A stretch of DNA of 64,000 bases, from positions 1-64,000 of the forward strand of contig JACWDI010000005.1 in assembly GCA_014654265.1 (NCBI GenBank), in the 5' to 3' direction. The notes beneath the pieces were generated by a model. The model was not told the DNA's origin, made no database searches, and saw nothing but the letters and a program-made list of their open reading frames with translations. How positions within the stretch are numbered: the first letter of the stretch is position 1; each line of letters begins with the position of its first letter. Source of the DNA: Pelagibacterales bacterium SAG-MED11 (lineage in GTDB: Bacteria; Pseudomonadota; Alphaproteobacteria; Pelagibacterales; Pelagibacteraceae). Position numbers and translations under genes: made by a program. Shown here piece after piece: positions 29,009 to 56,840 of the stretch.

Positions 29009-29245
29009 TTACTTTGATTTACTTGCCCACCACTTGTCTAAGATAAAGTACCAGACAGAATTAGCAATTGGTTCAACAATTGCATCCGTCAATGCTATAG
29101 AAAAAGGCACATCTGCAACCAACATCAAAACAGTAATTGCGATAGCAAAATGTCCAAGTGTATAAATAAATGTTCTTAGGATTGAACCTTTGTTATTGCT
29201 GTAGATATTTCCAGCTGCTTTAAATATGCCGCTAGTTACTTCCAT
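29009..29245 (-). CDS. DUF2061 membrane protein
   Basis: The 78-residue protein has the DUF2061 pattern: an N-terminal polar part, RTFIYTLGHFAIAITVLMLVADVPFSIALTDAIVEPIANSVWYFILDKWW, with two short hydrophobic helices. Its function is unknown. Its ATG directly abuts the stop of the oxygenase gene, so the two are co-translated. The name is based on the RSxxKTxxYR-like and EPxxxxxxYxxxDxxW spacing. Confidence 0.78.
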   Translation of the reverse strand: MEVTSGIFKAAGNIYSNNKGSILRTFIYTLGHFAIAITVLMLVADVPFSIALTDAIVEPIANSVWYFILDKWWASKSK

Positions 29246-29842
29246 TTATTTTTTGAAAGGACTTTCTAGAACACATGCTACTAAGTGTATTCTTGCCTGT
29301 TCACCACCATTAAAAAAATTATGATATTTAGTATTATTTGTTATCCAAACTTTACCGTCAGCTGGAAGGTGTTTTGCAACATTCTCTATCACCATCGAAC
29401 AACCTTTATTAGTTATAATTGGTACATGAAGCCTACACTCAGGGTCTTTATGCCAACTTAAAGTTGATCTTGGTTCTTTTAACAAAAGTCTAACTCTTCC
29501 TAATTTATATTTTTTACTTAATATTTCGAATACTTCCTTAAAATAAGTTTTTTCAAACTCTGGAACTAATTGTGTATATTTAGACTCATCTATATCTACA
29601 TCTCTTGAAACTTCTTTTCCAGTATCATCAGCAATTGTCCAGTATTTGCCCCTTATGTTATTACCTTTAATAGAGTTTTCATCATTTGGAATTTGATTTA
29701 TTGGTATGGCACCAAAATGTGTAACTCCTGGTGAGTTGAACTTTTTATTTTTTAGTATTTTATCTAAATCTGATCTTAGTCTTGAAATATCAAAATTTAG
29801 ATTAGGTACTTCGTAAAAGTCTTCAAAAGTAGCTTTTTCCAT
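29246..29842 (-). CDS. Aspartyl/asparaginyl beta-hydroxylase-like 2OG oxygenase
   Basis: The 198-residue protein has the Fe(II)/2-oxoglutarate oxygenase core of the Asp/Asn beta-hydroxylase family. The metal-binding HxD is in TLSWHKDPECRLHVPI and the distal His in NNTKYHNFFNGG, with the Arg of ARIHLV positioned to bind 2-oxoglutarate. The short form, without the membrane and TPR parts of eukaryotic homologues, is common in marine alphaproteobacteria. The substrate is unknown. It follows katG by 20 bases and is coupled to DUF2061. Confidence 0.84.
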   Translation of the reverse strand: MEKATFEDFYEVPNLNFDISRLRSDLDKILKNKKFNSPGVTHFGAIPINQIPNDENSIKGNNIRGKYWTIADDTGKEVSRDVDIDESKYTQLVPEFEKTYFKEVFEILSKKYKLGRVRLLLKEPRSTLSWHKDPECRLHVPIITNKGCSMVIENVAKHLPADGKVWITNNTKYHNFFNGGEQARIHLVACVLESPFKK

Positions 29843-29862: not shown

Positions 29863-32100
29863 TTAATTAAGTTTTAAATCAAATCTATCAGCATTCATTA
29901 CTTTTACCCATGCCGCAATAAAATCATTTACAAACTTATCTTGTGAATCCTCACATGCATAAACTTCAGCTAAAGCTCTTAGTTGTGAATTTGATCCAAA
30001 GATAAGATCAACTCTTGTACCTTTCCATTTAGTTTTTTTTGTCTTTCTGTCTATTCCAACAAATGTTTGCTCAGATTTATCAGTTTCTTTCCATGTGGTA
30101 TTCATGTCTAATAAATTTGTGAAATAATCATTCGTTAATACACCAGGTTTTTTTGTGAAAACTCCATGTAGTGAGTCATCAAAATTGGTATTTAAAACTC
30201 GCATTCCACCCATTAATACTGTCATTTCTGGAGCAGTAAGACCCATTAATTGTGCTTTATCAACTAACTTTTCTTCAGCTGATACAATTGATTTACCACC
30301 ATTTAGATAATTTCTAAAACCATCTGCTTGAGGTTCTAATAATCCAAATGAATTCACATCTGTTTGTTCTTGTCTAGCATCTCCTCTACCAGGAGAAAAT
30401 GGAACTTTTACTTTATGTCCAGCTTTTTTAGCAGCCATTTCAACTCCGACTCCTCCAGCTAAGACAATTAAATCGGCCATTGAAACTGTTTTCTTTTTAT
30501 TATCAAATTGTTTTTTAATTTTCTTTAACGCTGAGATAACTTTTGAGAGATTAGAAGGATTATTAACTTTCCAATTTTTTTGTGGCTCTAACATTATTCT
30601 TGCTCCATTAGCGCCCCCTCTTTTGTCAGAACCTCTAAAAGTTGAAGCTGAAGCCCAAGCAGTGGAAACTAAATCAGAAACTGATAGTTTAGATTTTGAT
30701 ATTTTTGATTTTAAATCATTAATATCTTTTGATTTTAATTTATATTTTGGTTTATCAATTGGATCTTGCCAAATTAATTGTTCTTTGGGAACATCGCTAC
30801 CAAGATAACAAACTCTCGGCCCCATATCCCTGTGAGTTAATTTAAACCACGCCCTAGCAAATGCATCATGAAATTCTTTTGGATTTTTATGAAAATGTTT
30901 TGTAATAGGCCCATAACTTGGATCAACTTTCATAGAAATATCTGTTGTTTGCATCATTGGAGGGTGAAGAACATTTTTATCGTGTGCATCAGGAACCATT
31001 TTTATCTTTTGTCCATTTTTCTTTGGTGTCCACTGATGAGCACCAGCAGGACTTTTTGTAAGCTCCCATTCATGATCATAAAGACAGTCTAAATAACCCA
31101 TATCCCATTGAATTGGATTTTGTGTCCAAGCACCTTCTATACCGCTACTGATTGTATCAACACCTTTTCCAGATTTATATCCACTATTCCATCCAGTTGA
31201 CTGATCTTGAATTCTTGAAGCTTCAGGATCAGGGCCCTTGTGTGATTCAGGTGCTGCTCCGTGTGATTTACCAAATGTATGGCCACCAGCCACTAGAGCT
31301 GCTGTTTCATAATCATTCATTGCCATTCTACCAAATGTTTCTCTAATATCATGTGCTGCAAGTTTTGGATCTGGATTAGCATCAGGACCTTGTGGATTAA
31401 CATATATCAAACCCATATGTGAAGCACCAAGTGGTTGTTCTAAATCTCTTTTATCAGTATACCTTTCCACACCTAGCATTTCTTTTTCTGATCCCCAGTA
31501 AATATCATCTTCTGGTTCCCAAATATCAGTTCTTCCAGCACCAAAACCAAATGTTTTAAATCCCATTGAGTCTAATGCAACATTACCTACTAGGATAAAT
31601 AAATCTGCCCAAGAAATCTTATTTCCATATTTTTTTTTAATTGGCCAAAGAAGTAATCTCGCCTTATCTAAATTAACATTATCTGGCCAAGAATTAAGTG
31701 GTGCAAATCTTTGGTTTCCTGTTCCAGCTCCACCTCTGCCATCACCAGTTCTATATGTGCCAGCTGCATGCCATGCTAATCTAATAAACAAAGGTCCATA
31801 ATGACCATAATCAGCTGGCCACCACTCTTGGGAATCCGTCATTAATTTTTTCAAATCTTTTTTAAGAGCTTTATAATTTAGTTTTTTAAATTCTTTGGAA
31901 TAATTAAATTTCTTATTCATCGGATTTGATAAATTAGAATGTTGACTAAGTATTTTAAGATTTAAACTATTTGGCCAAAAATCTCTTACAGATTGACCTC
32001 TTCCTGCAGAAAATTTTGCAGGTGTTCCAGTTCCTGTAAAAGGACATTTGCTTAATTGATCGGCTTTAAAAGATTTATTTTTAAAATTTTCAGTGCTCAT
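29863..32100 (-). CDS. katG: Catalase-peroxidase
   Basis: The 745-residue heme enzyme removes hydrogen peroxide. The duplicated peroxidase fold is full length; the distal site [18 protein letters not shown] holds the Arg, Trp and His, and the proximal His is in [14 protein letters not shown]. The Trp-Tyr-Met crosslink residues are provided by the same regions ([14 protein letters not shown]). A strong GGGGA ribosome site and an ICE-like operator inside its promoter imply iron/heme-responsive control by the neighbouring Irr. Confidence 0.97.
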
Positions 32101-32135: not shown

Positions 32136-32164
32136 AGTTTATAATGATTCTAAAAAAGTGTCAA
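32136..32164 (-). promoter_or_regulatory. katG promoter containing an Irr (ICE-like) operator
   Basis: On the minus strand the -35 TTGACA (32159-32164) is perfect, with a 17-base spacer and -10 TAAACT (32136-32141). Within spacer and -10, at 32138-32154, is TTTAGAATCATTATAAA, which differs from the Irr iron-control element TTTAGAA-N3-TTCTAAA at one position. Binding there would block RNA polymerase. A near-identical copy lies at 32615-32631 beside irr. Confidence 0.7.
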
Positions 32165-32197
32165 TTGGTTTAAAATGACGCTAAATTGATTAATAGA

Positions 32198-32596
32198 TCA
32201 GTCTTCTAGCTTTACTAGAACTTCAACTGACTTTATTTTTTTTCCATTAATTTTTTTTAAAATATTTATTGGTCCTACATCTGAGTTCTCTAAATCAATC
32301 AACTTTTCCTCTTTTAAATCATAAAAATGATGATGATCCGTAACGTTTGTATCAAAATATGTTTCACTAGAATTAATAGGAATTTGTTTGAGATATCCTT
32401 TTTTTTCAAAAGCGTGGACTGTATTATAAACAGTGGCTAATGATATTTTGTTATTTGCTTGTTTCTTAATTTTTTGCTCTAATTCATTTATTGTAAAATG
32501 AAATGTTTTGTCAGTGTTAAATAAAACCTCACAAATTTGAAGCCTTTGCTTGGTTGGTCTTAATCCAGAATTTCTGAGTTTTTCAATATATTTCAC
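32198..32596 (-). CDS. irr: Irr-type Fur-family iron response regulator
   Basis: The 132-residue protein has the Fur-fold winged helix (GLRPTKQRLQICEVLF...ISLATVYNTVHAFEKKGYL) and the HHHFYDL histidine cluster in place of the Fur HHDH motif, which marks Irr. No N-terminal heme regulatory motif is present. Irr senses heme and represses or activates iron and peroxide genes in alphaproteobacteria. The start is GTG (32594-32596). Flanking katG on one side and fabA on the other matches the conserved irr-fabA order. Confidence 0.88.
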   Translation of the reverse strand: MKYIEKLRNSGLRPTKQRLQICEVLFNTDKTFHFTINELEQKIKKQANNKISLATVYNTVHAFEKKGYLKQIPINSSETYFDTNVTDHHHFYDLKEEKLIDLENSDVGPINILKKINGKKIKSVEVLVKLED

Positions 32597-32614: not shown

Positions 32615-32631
32615 GTTATAATTATTCTAAA
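32615..32631. promoter_or_regulatory. ICE-like operator between irr and fabA
   Basis: On the minus strand the site reads TTTAGAATAATTATAAC, differing from the katG site by two bases and fitting TTTAGAA-N3-TTCTAAA apart from the right-hand end. It lies 18 bases before the irr start, downstream of a TATAAT-like -10, so it could mediate irr autorepression. fabA starts at 32691 on the other side and could be co-regulated. Confidence 0.6.
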
Positions 32632-32690: not shown

Positions 32691-33191
32691 ATGAAAAAAA
32701 ACTCTTACTCATATGATGAGCTAATTAATTGTGGTGAAGGAAAACTATTTGGTCCAGGTAATGCTAAATTACCGCTTCCACCCATGCTTATGTTTGATAG
32801 AATTACAGAAATTACTGATGATAAAGGTGCTTTTAATAAAGGCTCTTTGAAAGCCGAATTAGATATAAAAAAAAACCATTGGTTTTTTGATTGTCATTTT
32901 AAGGAGGACCCTGTCATGCCTGGTTGTCTTGGTCTTGATGCCATGTGGCAATTGGTAGGTTTTTATTTAGGCTGGATTGGAAATCCAGGAAAAGGAAGGG
33001 CATTAGGAGTTGGGACTGTAAAATTTACTGGGGAAGTTTTACAAAGTGTAAAAAATGTCAGATATGAGATACATATGAAAAAAATTATGTCTCCGGGAGG
33101 TACAACAGTGGGTCTTGCAAATGGGGTGGTATTAGCAGATAATAAAAAGATATATTCAGCAGATAGTTTAAAAGTGGGTTTATTTAAATAA
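32691..33191 (+). CDS. fabA: 3-hydroxydecanoyl-ACP dehydratase/isomerase
   Basis: The 166-residue hotdog-fold enzyme introduces the cis double bond of unsaturated fatty acids. The catalytic His is in [24 protein letters not shown] together with the Asp, as in E. coli FabA, and [20 protein letters not shown] follows. An AAGGA ribosome site is upstream. Its last base is the first base of fabB. Confidence 0.96.
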
Positions 33192-48381: not shown

Positions 48382-48812
48382 TTATTGGGTTTTTTTTTTA
48401 CCCCATATAACTCTAATTTATGATCTACTAAAGTGTAACCATATTTTTCTGCTACTTTAATTTGAAGTTTTTCTATTTCATCATCTACAAATTCAATTAT
48501 CTCTCCCGTTTTTACATCGATCAAGTGATCGTGGTGACTCTCAATCATTGCTTCATATCTTGCTTTGCCACCTTTAAAATCATGTTTTGCTAATATACCT
48601 GCCTCCTCTAAAAGTTTTACAGTCCTATAAACTGTAGCAATACTTATTTTTGGATCAATCTTAGAAACTCTATTATACAACTCATCTACATCTGGATGAT
48701 CAGACTCTCCATAAGCCTCTTTGGATTCTGATATTATTCTAACTATTACTCTCCTTTGATCAGTTAGTTTTACCCCTTTAGATATACATTTTTGTTCAAT
48801 TGAATCTGACAT
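48378..48812 (-). CDS. fur: Fur-family metalloregulator (Fur/Mur)
   Basis: The 144-residue protein has the Fur winged helix (KLTDQRRVIVRIISES...ISIATVYRTVKLLEEAGI) and metal ligands in SHHDHLIDVKTGEIIEFVDDEIEKLQ and LVDHKLELYGVK. It lacks the C-terminal CxxC zinc site of some Fur proteins, as is usual in alphaproteobacteria, where this branch often responds to manganese (Mur) or iron. It is the second Fur-family member here beside Irr. A Fur-box-like site is at 28925-28943. Confidence 0.9.
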   Translation of the reverse strand: MSDSIEQKCISKGVKLTDQRRVIVRIISESKEAYGESDHPDVDELYNRVSKIDPKISIATVYRTVKLLEEAGILAKHDFKGGKARYEAMIESHHDHLIDVKTGEIIEFVDDEIEKLQIKVAEKYGYTLVDHKLELYGVKKKPNK

Positions 48813-54554: not shown

Positions 54555-56840
54555 ATGAAAAAAACAAAAATAGATCATTACACTGATAAGGAAGCACTAG
54601 ATTTTCATAGATATAAAAAACCAGGGAAGATTGAAATTTCATCATCTAAAAATATGACTACCAAGAGAGATCTTGCATTAGCTTATTCTCCTGGAGTTGC
54701 TGCCCCAGTGAGGGCTATCAGTAATAATCCCGAGGCTGCATTTGATTATACAAGTAAAGGAAATCTAGTGGCTGTTATAAGTAATGGTACAGCTATCTTA
54801 GGTATGGGTAATCTAGGTGCTTTAGCATCTAAACCTGTAATGGAAGGAAAAGCAGTTTTATTTAAAAGATTTGCAGACATAGACTCGATCGATCTTGAGA
54901 TTGATTCAAACAATCCAGATGAAATTATAAATAGTATTAAAAATTTTGCACCAAGCTTTGGTGGTATAAATCTAGAAGATATTGCTGCTCCTGATTGTTT
55001 TATCATTGAAGAAAGGCTCAAAGAAATTTTAGATATACCTGTTTTTCATGATGATCAACATGGCACCGCTATAATTACTACAGCAGCATTATTAAATGCT
55101 CTTGATATAAGTAAAAAAAAAATAGACAAAATAAAAATAGTTGTAAATGGTGCTGGTGCGTCTGCAATGGCCTGTACAAATTTATTTAAAAAAAGTGGTG
55201 TTCCTCAAAAAAATATCACCATGATTGATAGACAAGGTGTAATATTTCGAGGAAGAGAAAATTTAAATCAATGGAAGTCAAGTCATGCAATCGAAACACA
55301 AGATAGAGATCTAAATGATGCAATTAAAAATGCGGATGTGTTTTTAGGATTGTCCGCAAAAGGAGCTTTAACAAAAGATATGGTGAAAAAAATGGCAAAA
55401 AACCCAATTATTTTTGCTTGCGCAAATCCAGATCCTGAAATTACACCGGAAGAAATTGAGGAAGTAAGAGATGATGCAATTATAGCAACTGGAAGATCAG
55501 ACTATCCAAATCAGGTAAATAATTTAATAGGCTTTCCATATATTTTTAGAGGTGCTTTAGACGTTAGATCTAAAACAATTAATGAAGAAATGAAAGTAGC
55601 TGCCGCAAACGCGATTGCTAATCTGGCAAAAGAGGATGTTCCAGATGAAGTTGTAGCAGCAATGGGTGGTGAAAGACCACACTATGGCAAAGATTATATT
55701 ATTCCATCAACATTTGACCCAAGATTAATAAGTGTCATCCCGGCTGCTGTAGCTCAGGCTGCTATAAATACTGGAGTTGCAAGAATTAAAATTAATGATT
55801 TTGATATATATAAAGATCAACTAAAACAAAGATTAGATCCAACAGTAACTATTATGCAAGGTATTAATAGTTATATAAAAAAAAAACCAAAGAAAGTTGT
55901 TTTTGCAGATGGTGAAGATGAGAATACTCTTAAAGCTGCAATAGCTTTCAAGAATTCAAAATTAGGAATACCAATTTTAATTGGAAAAGAAGAATTGATT
56001 AAAGAGCAAATTAAAAAAATTGGTTATAATGAAAATTTTGATATTGAAGTTATTAATTCAAAAGACACTTCTAAAAGAGAAAAATACGTTAAATACTTGT
56101 TTAAAAAACTTCAAAGAGAACAAGGAATGCTAGAATGGGATTGCGATAGGCTCATTAGAAACGATAGAGTTATTTGGGCTTCTTGTATGGTCGCTTGCAA
56201 TGATGCAGATGCCATGGTGACTGGAAATACAAGACGATATTCTTCTTCTCTAGAAAAAATTGTAAAAGTAGTGGACCCAAGACCTGGGGAGATTATGTTT
56301 GGTTTAAATTTAGTTGTAAATAGGGGTAAAACAATATTCATATGCGATACCTCAGTTATAGAATATCCTGATGCAAAACAATTAGCTGATATGGCTAAAT
56401 CAGCCGCAAGAGTTGTAAAACTTTTTGGTTTTGATCCTAAGGTTGCATTTTTATCTCACTCTACTTTTGGTCAGCCAGTCACTGATAGAACGAAAAGAAT
56501 AAGTGATGCGGTTGAGATTTTAAAAAAGAGCAACGTAGATTTCAAATTTGATGGAGAAATGCAGCCAGACGTTGCGCTTGAAGAAGTATATAAAGAGCTT
56601 TATCCTTTTTCTGAAATAGTTGGTAGTTCAAACGTTTTAATAATGCCAAGCCAGCACAGCGCGGCTATTTCTTATAAAATGATTAAATCTATGAGTAGGG
56701 CAAAAGTTATTGGTCCACTACTAATTGGTTTGGGCCTTCCAATTGAAATAGCACCACTAAGATCTTCCACGTCAGAAATTATTAATATAGCATCTATAGC
56801 TGCATATTCTGCAGATGTCATTGATTACGAAAAAAATTAG
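54555..56840 (+). CDS. maeB: NADP-dependent malic enzyme with phosphotransacetylase-like domain
   Basis: The 761-residue MaeB-type enzyme oxidatively decarboxylates malate to pyruvate. The N-terminal malic domain (about 1-425) has AYSPGVAAPVRAI, DIDSIDLEI and VFHDDQHGTAIITTAALLNAL with the NAD(P)-binding VVNGAGASAMACTNLF. The C-terminal part (about 430-761) is a phosphotransacetylase-like domain (VVFADGEDENTLKAA...AGLL-type GPLLIGLGLP) that is regulatory in known enzymes. Its last codon overlaps the BON gene by 4 bases (TTAG). Confidence 0.96.
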   Translation: MKKTKIDHYTDKEALDFHRYKKPGKIEISSSKNMTTKRDLALAYSPGVAAPVRAISNNPEAAFDYTSKGNLVAVISNGTAILGMGNLGALASKPVMEGKAVLFKRFADIDSIDLEIDSNNPDEIINSIKNFAPSFGGINLEDIAAPDCFIIEERLKEILDIPVFHDDQHGTAIITTAALLNALDISKKKIDKIKIVVNGAGASAMACTNLFKKSGVPQKNITMIDRQGVIFRGRENLNQWKSSHAIETQDRDLNDAIKNADVFLGLSAKGALTKDMVKKMAKNPIIFACANPDPEITPEEIEEVRDDAIIATGRSDYPNQVNNLIGFPYIFRGALDVRSKTINEEMKVAAANAIANLAKEDVPDEVVAAMGGERPHYGKDYIIPSTFDPRLISVIPAAVAQAAINTGVARIKINDFDIYKDQLKQRLDPTVTIMQGINSYIKKKPKKVVFADGEDENTLKAAIAFKNSKLGIPILIGKEELIKEQIKKIGYNENFDIEVINSKDTSKREKYVKYLFKKLQREQGMLEWDCDRLIRNDRVIWASCMVACNDADAMVTGNTRRYSSSLEKIVKVVDPRPGEIMFGLNLVVNRGKTIFICDTSVIEYPDAKQLADMAKSAARVVKLFGFDPKVAFLSHSTFGQPVTDRTKRISDAVEILKKSNVDFKFDGEMQPDVALEEVYKELYPFSEIVGSSNVLIMPSQHSAAISYKMIKSMSRAKVIGPLLIGLGLPIEIAPLRSSTSEIINIASIAAYSADVIDYEKN

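Follow-up and report, generated by a model that had tools for sequence, protein, structure and literature searches.

The window analysed here, a stretch of 64,000 nucleotides from a SAR11 genome, carries a catalase-peroxidase gene (katG) directly behind a gene for a Fur-superfamily regulator (irr), and a palindrome lies in the promoter between them. This arrangement raises the question of whether the palindrome is the operator through which the neighbouring Irr controls katG, and to which signal such control would respond. The genes concerned are the following.

29009..29245, minus strand: DUF2061 membrane protein, third gene of the katG cassette
29246..29842, minus strand: Asp/Arg-hydroxylase-like gene (PF05118), directly after katG and its probable operon partner
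29863..32100, minus strand: katG, catalase-peroxidase of 745 aa (TIGR00198, 1131.6 bits; cut-off 770)
32198..32596, minus strand: irr, Fur-superfamily regulator of 132 aa, a divergent Irr ortholog
32691..33191, plus strand: fabA, divergent neighbour of irr

The initial annotation had placed an iron-control element (ICE), one base off its consensus, at 32138-32154 and had it cover the -10 and the spacer of a promoter with a perfect TTGACA. Both statements were borne out by the sequence positions, with the element read on the minus strand; a second box at irr, a degenerate upstream box and the exchange of katG for rubrerythrin described below had been overlooked.

32143-32138 (TATAAA) or 32141-32136 (TAAACT), minus strand: katG -10 region, 32136..32143
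32154-32138, minus strand: ICE2, TTTAGAATCATTATAAA, predicted Irr operator spanning the spacer and -10 of the katG promoter
32164-32159, minus strand: katG -35 hexamer, a perfect TTGACA that is also conserved in relatives
32169..32185, minus strand: degenerate ICE1, TTTAGCGTCATTTTAAA, upstream of the -35 and 31 bp from ICE2
32615..32631, minus strand: ICE at irr, TTTAGAATAATTATAAC, in the divergent irr/fabA region, 18 bp upstream of the irr start

ICE2 matches 13 of the 14 fixed bases of the ICE consensus, TTTAGAA-N3-TTCTAAA, and lies 37 bp from the katG ATG. On the minus strand the irr-katG intergenic region reads TTGACA-CTTTTTTAGAATCATTATAAACT, which gives a spacer of 15 bp with TATAAA as the -10 and of 17 bp with TAAACT (three related loci, L009, L011 and L231, have TTGACA-17-TATAAA); given the position of TTGACA and of either candidate -10, ICE2 spans spacer and -10. 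A clear ICE1 is present in many relatives (...TTCTAAACTGTTGACA), and L150 and L152 have exact copies of the consensus (TTTAGAATCATTCTAAA) in their irr-rubrerythrin intergenic regions. The degenerate ICE1 of the window's own clade has a well-conserved GCGTCATTTT core and may be another site. The box at irr is a predicted site of Irr autoregulation. Since a single mismatch likewise separates the 7-1-7 core of ICE2 from the PerR box of Bacillus, TTATAATNATTATAA, the box alone cannot name its regulator, which is named by the neighbouring gene and its synteny.

The window genome is 1.10 Mb long with 72% AT and holds nine sites within one mismatch of the consensus, as against 4-10 per genome in five Markov genomes. 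A simple consensus match therefore proves nothing, and we relied instead on conservation and on a weight matrix trained solely on the sites of relatives, with the window genome left out. Genome-wide, this matrix ranked the katG site first (22.0) and the irr-promoter site second (21.1), so that the two top-scoring sites flank a single gene; the third (16.2) fell within a coding frame. Forty Markov genomes gave a mean of 0.125 sites scoring at least 21: five gave one such site and none gave two. Over the box the mean major-base frequency was 0.98 versus 0.53 in the 40 bases downstream (33 close-relative loci, with Irr 83-100% identical). The matrix found no other strong ICE in the window genome, and a wider ICE regulon there was rejected; several further matches to the strict pattern, located within genes or ahead of transporter genes, look fortuitous. 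In a second genome (G012, about 70% of it scanned) only irr and rubrerythrin stand out near promoters, and the other high matches checked lie inside genes, except weaker ones near 55952-56234. The predicted SAR11 Irr regulon comprises peroxide defence only.

We then compared 117 SAR11 loci, counting a box where at least 12 of the 14 consensus bases matched and taking the expectation from dinucleotide shuffles. A box was present in 75/76 irr-katG intergenic regions (0.77 expected), in 37 of the 38 between irr and rubrerythrin (0.44 expected) and upstream of irr in 100 of 115 (0.9 expected), tallies that are not independent counts because the loci are related and a few genomes contribute two overlapping ones. 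The initial annotation had proposed looking for the motif before katG in strains with the same katG-irr order, and by the first of these tallies its claim passes that check. Identity across the compared loci falls to 47% for Irr and 57% for KatG. The box also precedes katG where katG does not adjoin irr (G050, locus L113). The layout ICE1 - TTGACA - ICE2, with its boxes 31-32 bp apart, is common to many promoters of katG and of rubrerythrin; in the most distant rubrerythrin loci (L031-L033) ICE1 alone is clear.

The gene behind irr proved to be exchangeable. Across the genomes of the order and 80 named Pelagibacteraceae loci, this slot is occupied by katG in 76 loci, by rubrerythrin in 38 and by a peroxiredoxin in one (L257; PF08534, 83 bits; boxes on both sides of TTGACA), with promoter boxes in each case. 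Of 61 genomes from the order, katG occurs in 19 and rubrerythrin in 29, and the two were never found in the same genome. There are three exceptions to the rule that the enzyme sits immediately behind irr: G050 has katG on a contig other than that of irr, G060 has rubrerythrin but no irr was found in it, and in G019 a contig end cuts irr and no enzyme was seen. Genomes without irr, most of them incomplete, mostly have neither enzyme. On the Irr tree five slot changes are needed, of which at least two are forced by well-supported branches. In L252, L259 and L261 KatG nests within the window's KatG clade (support 98) and Irr, only 64% identical to that of the window, groups with rubrerythrin-linked Irr; this discordance indicates that katG was inserted behind an irr already in place. 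In L259 and L261 it brought along the Asp/Arg-hydroxylase-like gene and the DUF2061 gene, both of which also follow katG in the window. The hydroxylase follows katG in 52/76 katG loci (many of the remaining loci end too early) and was found in none of the 38 rubrerythrin loci. In SAR11, katG looks to have replaced rubrerythrin several times.

Some loci depart from this layout. In G038 a fabA locus that has lost irr keeps a perfect ICE palindrome and TTGACA (L122:2237-2513) before a 67-aa ORF without a Pfam match and then DUF2061, and an irr-katG-hydroxylase cassette lies on another contig of that genome. In G025 (L132) irr is seemingly broken by an in-frame stop or frameshift at the contig end, both boxes are kept, and katG is kept with an in-frame stop reported by the search. 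Order-mates of the f2 family (L118, L119, L124) have ICE-like boxes before two kinds of peroxiredoxin and also before an sfuC-like iron-binding protein; we give these boxes little weight because the genomes are closely related to one another and the sfuC site looks like a Fur box.

Beyond SAR11, fabA-irr synteny occurs across the class, including other Alphaproteobacteria, and many class loci have irr next to both fabA and rubrerythrin, as in SAR11 relatives. Of the 30 best loci at class level, about 25 place rubrerythrin no more than 1.5 kb from irr, mostly with an intervening box, and this wide occurrence makes the irr-rubrerythrin pair look ancestral. The SAR11 order, irr then katG, recurs in L164, L165, L168 and L170, and the reverse in L163 (katG-irr-rubrerythrin) and L166; the notion that irr-katG is unique to SAR11 was therefore rejected. 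Good boxes accompany L165 (two, each 12/14), L170 (13/14) and L163 (12/14), and none was found at the irr-katG neighbours of L164 and L168. In G064 (L182) two boxes (13/14 and 12/14) precede a katG not seen next to irr. Given these neighbours and boxes outside SAR11, control of katG by Irr probably arose more than once. In Rhizobiales and Rhodobacterales, by contrast with SAR11, katG stands beside oxyR rather than behind irr, and in A. tumefaciens it is controlled by the adjacent OxyR (PMC11975290). No OxyR scored over its cut-off in the 61 SAR11-order genomes, where the best match to the OxyR model (117 bits, in G010) was a LysR relative.

The regulator itself is an atypical Irr. The IrrA model (NF045678) was the best of all families for the window protein at 128.3 bits, below the curated cut-off of 150, and an Irr ortholog of an order-mate, also beside fabA (G050), reached 154.7 bits. 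The shortfall counts against control by Irr, and we treat it as divergence from an annotation threshold, not as loss of a defining trait. PerR models gave 42-56 bits and the thermophile model 35, with cut-offs of 180-250. The Cys-Pro heme motif belongs to the B. japonicum type only and is not known to be required for Irr generally, as R. leguminosarum Irr illustrates; no CP occurs anywhere in the window protein, which has a single Cys (C22) and lacks the Cys4 structural zinc site. Its HHH cluster is present, with H88-H90 invariant in ten diverse SAR11 sequences. Residues H33, D82, H88, H90 and D101 align with the PerR ligands H37, D85, H91, H93 and D104, and all five are invariant in the same ten sequences; the same ligands have been considered in work on B. 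japonicum Irr, where breakdown of heme is followed by oxidation of His63 (PMC4700492). The predicted Irr model (pLDDT 82) best matched Leptospira PerR, and 5NL9, which is that protein, was the nearest solved structure by sequence and by fold. Because ligands and predicted fold match PerR, what separates Irr from PerR is a matter of signal, not of fold.

We put at about 0.78 the probability that the 17-mer is the predicted operator of the adjacent SAR11 Irr and controls katG by steric block of its promoter. This reading draws on the conserved box (75/76 loci), the box at irr, the retention of the box when the slot enzyme is exchanged, and boxes before katG genes apart from irr (G050, G064). The initial annotation had called the palindrome direct evidence of such control; the comparison strongly supports the control as a prediction, in which we infer binding, repression and signal alike. 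An Irr dimer on ICE2 would cover the spacer and -10 of katG and keep RNA polymerase off, and where ICE1 is intact a second dimer would sit upstream of the -35 on the same helix face. On the box at its own promoter Irr would repress itself, closing a feedback loop. Loss of Irr activity would derepress katG and the two genes behind it. In R. sphaeroides Irr bound at the transcription start of mbfA as a repressor, and when tested on the catalase gene katE it did not bind (PMC3413700). The katE result speaks against our reading, as does the rise of P. ubique rubrerythrin under iron limitation (PMC2864753).

As to the signal, we give peroxide about an even chance of being the main one for SAR11 Irr. 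It is favoured because the same operator is kept for enzymes of heme, di-iron and thiol-only chemistry, because no heme or iron gene of the window genome has a strong ICE by the relatives-only matrix, and because the rubrerythrin of P. ubique rose 1.57-fold on iron limitation, where a classical Irr should repress (PMC2864753). By inference from all loci seen here that rubrerythrin is the irr-linked one, and its rise runs counter to the effect classically expected from an ICE within the promoter core; P. ubique irr itself did not respond to iron (PMC2864753). Peroxide would oxidise the His/Asp metal site or the heme site of Irr, at a rate set by the supply of iron or heme.

The initial annotation had instead linked katG to heme status, a presumed link carried over from rhizobial Irr to SAR11. 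With the same operator and Irr as a classical heme/iron sensor, katG would be repressed when heme is scarce and made when it is ample. That account suits a protein of the Irr family, an invariant HHH cluster that is a heme site in B. japonicum Irr (PMC4700492) and a target that is itself a heme enzyme; it sits poorly with control retained for rubrerythrin, a non-heme di-iron enzyme, and for peroxiredoxin, which has no metal, with the lack of strong boxes at heme or iron genes of the window genome, with an Irr devoid of the Cys-Pro motif, and with the rise, not fall, of P. ubique rubrerythrin on iron limitation (PMC2864753), and we regard it as rather unlikely. Sensing of heme and PerR-like sensing of peroxide can be joined, since heme-bound Irr produces and consumes H2O2 (PMC4700492).

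A different binder would be the second Fur-family protein of the genome (Fur/Mur, 48405-48779), given that Fur-family boxes are alike. We consider this very improbable: the promoter of the sfuC-like gene has a Fur-type array, GATAATCATTCTCATTGAGAATAGTTATC (G000, contig C21:137700-137830), very different from the ICE, and for this reason Fur was rejected as binder of the katG box; moreover, irr itself has an ICE, and across the class an ICE adjoins irr. That the box is a chance palindrome in AT-rich DNA, conserved merely through its overlap with promoter bases at the -10, is scarcely credible despite the chance-level consensus count, as its left arm TTTAGAA is conserved although it falls within the spacer, a segment with no fixed promoter base, a second box stands at irr, many relatives have ICE1 upstream of the -35, 75/76 loci compare with 0.77 expected and none of 40 Markov genomes had two such strong sites.

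Control by Irr has close parallels in known systems. The Irr/ICE regulons of Rhizobiales and Rhodobacterales (B. japonicum bfr and blr7895; R. sphaeroides mbfA/ccpA) likewise combine an Irr ortholog with an ICE in or near the promoter, and the steric-block repression seen there is the mode predicted for SAR11; their Irr governs a broad iron and heme regulon, whereas the sites that stand out in the window genome are confined to irr and katG. PerR regulons (B. subtilis PerR; Leptospira PerR, 5NL9) also rest on a Fur-superfamily repressor with five His/Asp ligands, with peroxide scavengers as targets and autoregulation, both predicted in SAR11, although SAR11 Irr lacks the Cys4 zinc site and its PerR scores are exceeded by that of IrrA. 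In mycobacteria a dedicated regulator gene, furA, lies next to katG. As in that pair and in the oxyR-katG pair of Rhizobiales, a dedicated regulator gene adjoins katG in SAR11, but it belongs to a different subfamily and the enzyme in the SAR11 slot is exchangeable. The regulator family and its box were already known; what looks new is the target enzyme, the regulon seemingly reduced to peroxide defence and the exchangeable slot. In the literature searched, where most subscription papers are absent, no study of Irr and katG in SAR11 turned up.

Few bacterial groups on Earth are as abundant as SAR11, which is hard to manipulate and has few known regulators, and the searched literature yielded no description of how its peroxide defence is regulated when no OxyR can be recognised. 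Together, the conserved box and the exchangeable slot make control of katG by Irr well supported, and the retention of the box across enzyme exchange makes Irr appear a dedicated regulator of peroxide defence in SAR11. It is a tentative further step, for which we put the odds somewhat below even, that Irr, once a global iron regulator, has in SAR11 shrunk to a self-contained peroxide switch acting on itself and on the slot scavenger (KatG, rubrerythrin or peroxiredoxin), sensing peroxide directly through metal- or heme-catalysed oxidation at its conserved His/Asp site and doing the job of OxyR or PerR. As katG is reported to be typical of offshore SAR11 genera (PMC12636525), the slot enzyme may track habitat and iron supply. 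The slot is a natural experiment in which one regulator and promoter serve three unrelated scavengers, of heme, di-iron and thiol chemistry, and it offers a compact test of whether Irr proteins sense peroxide as PerR does.
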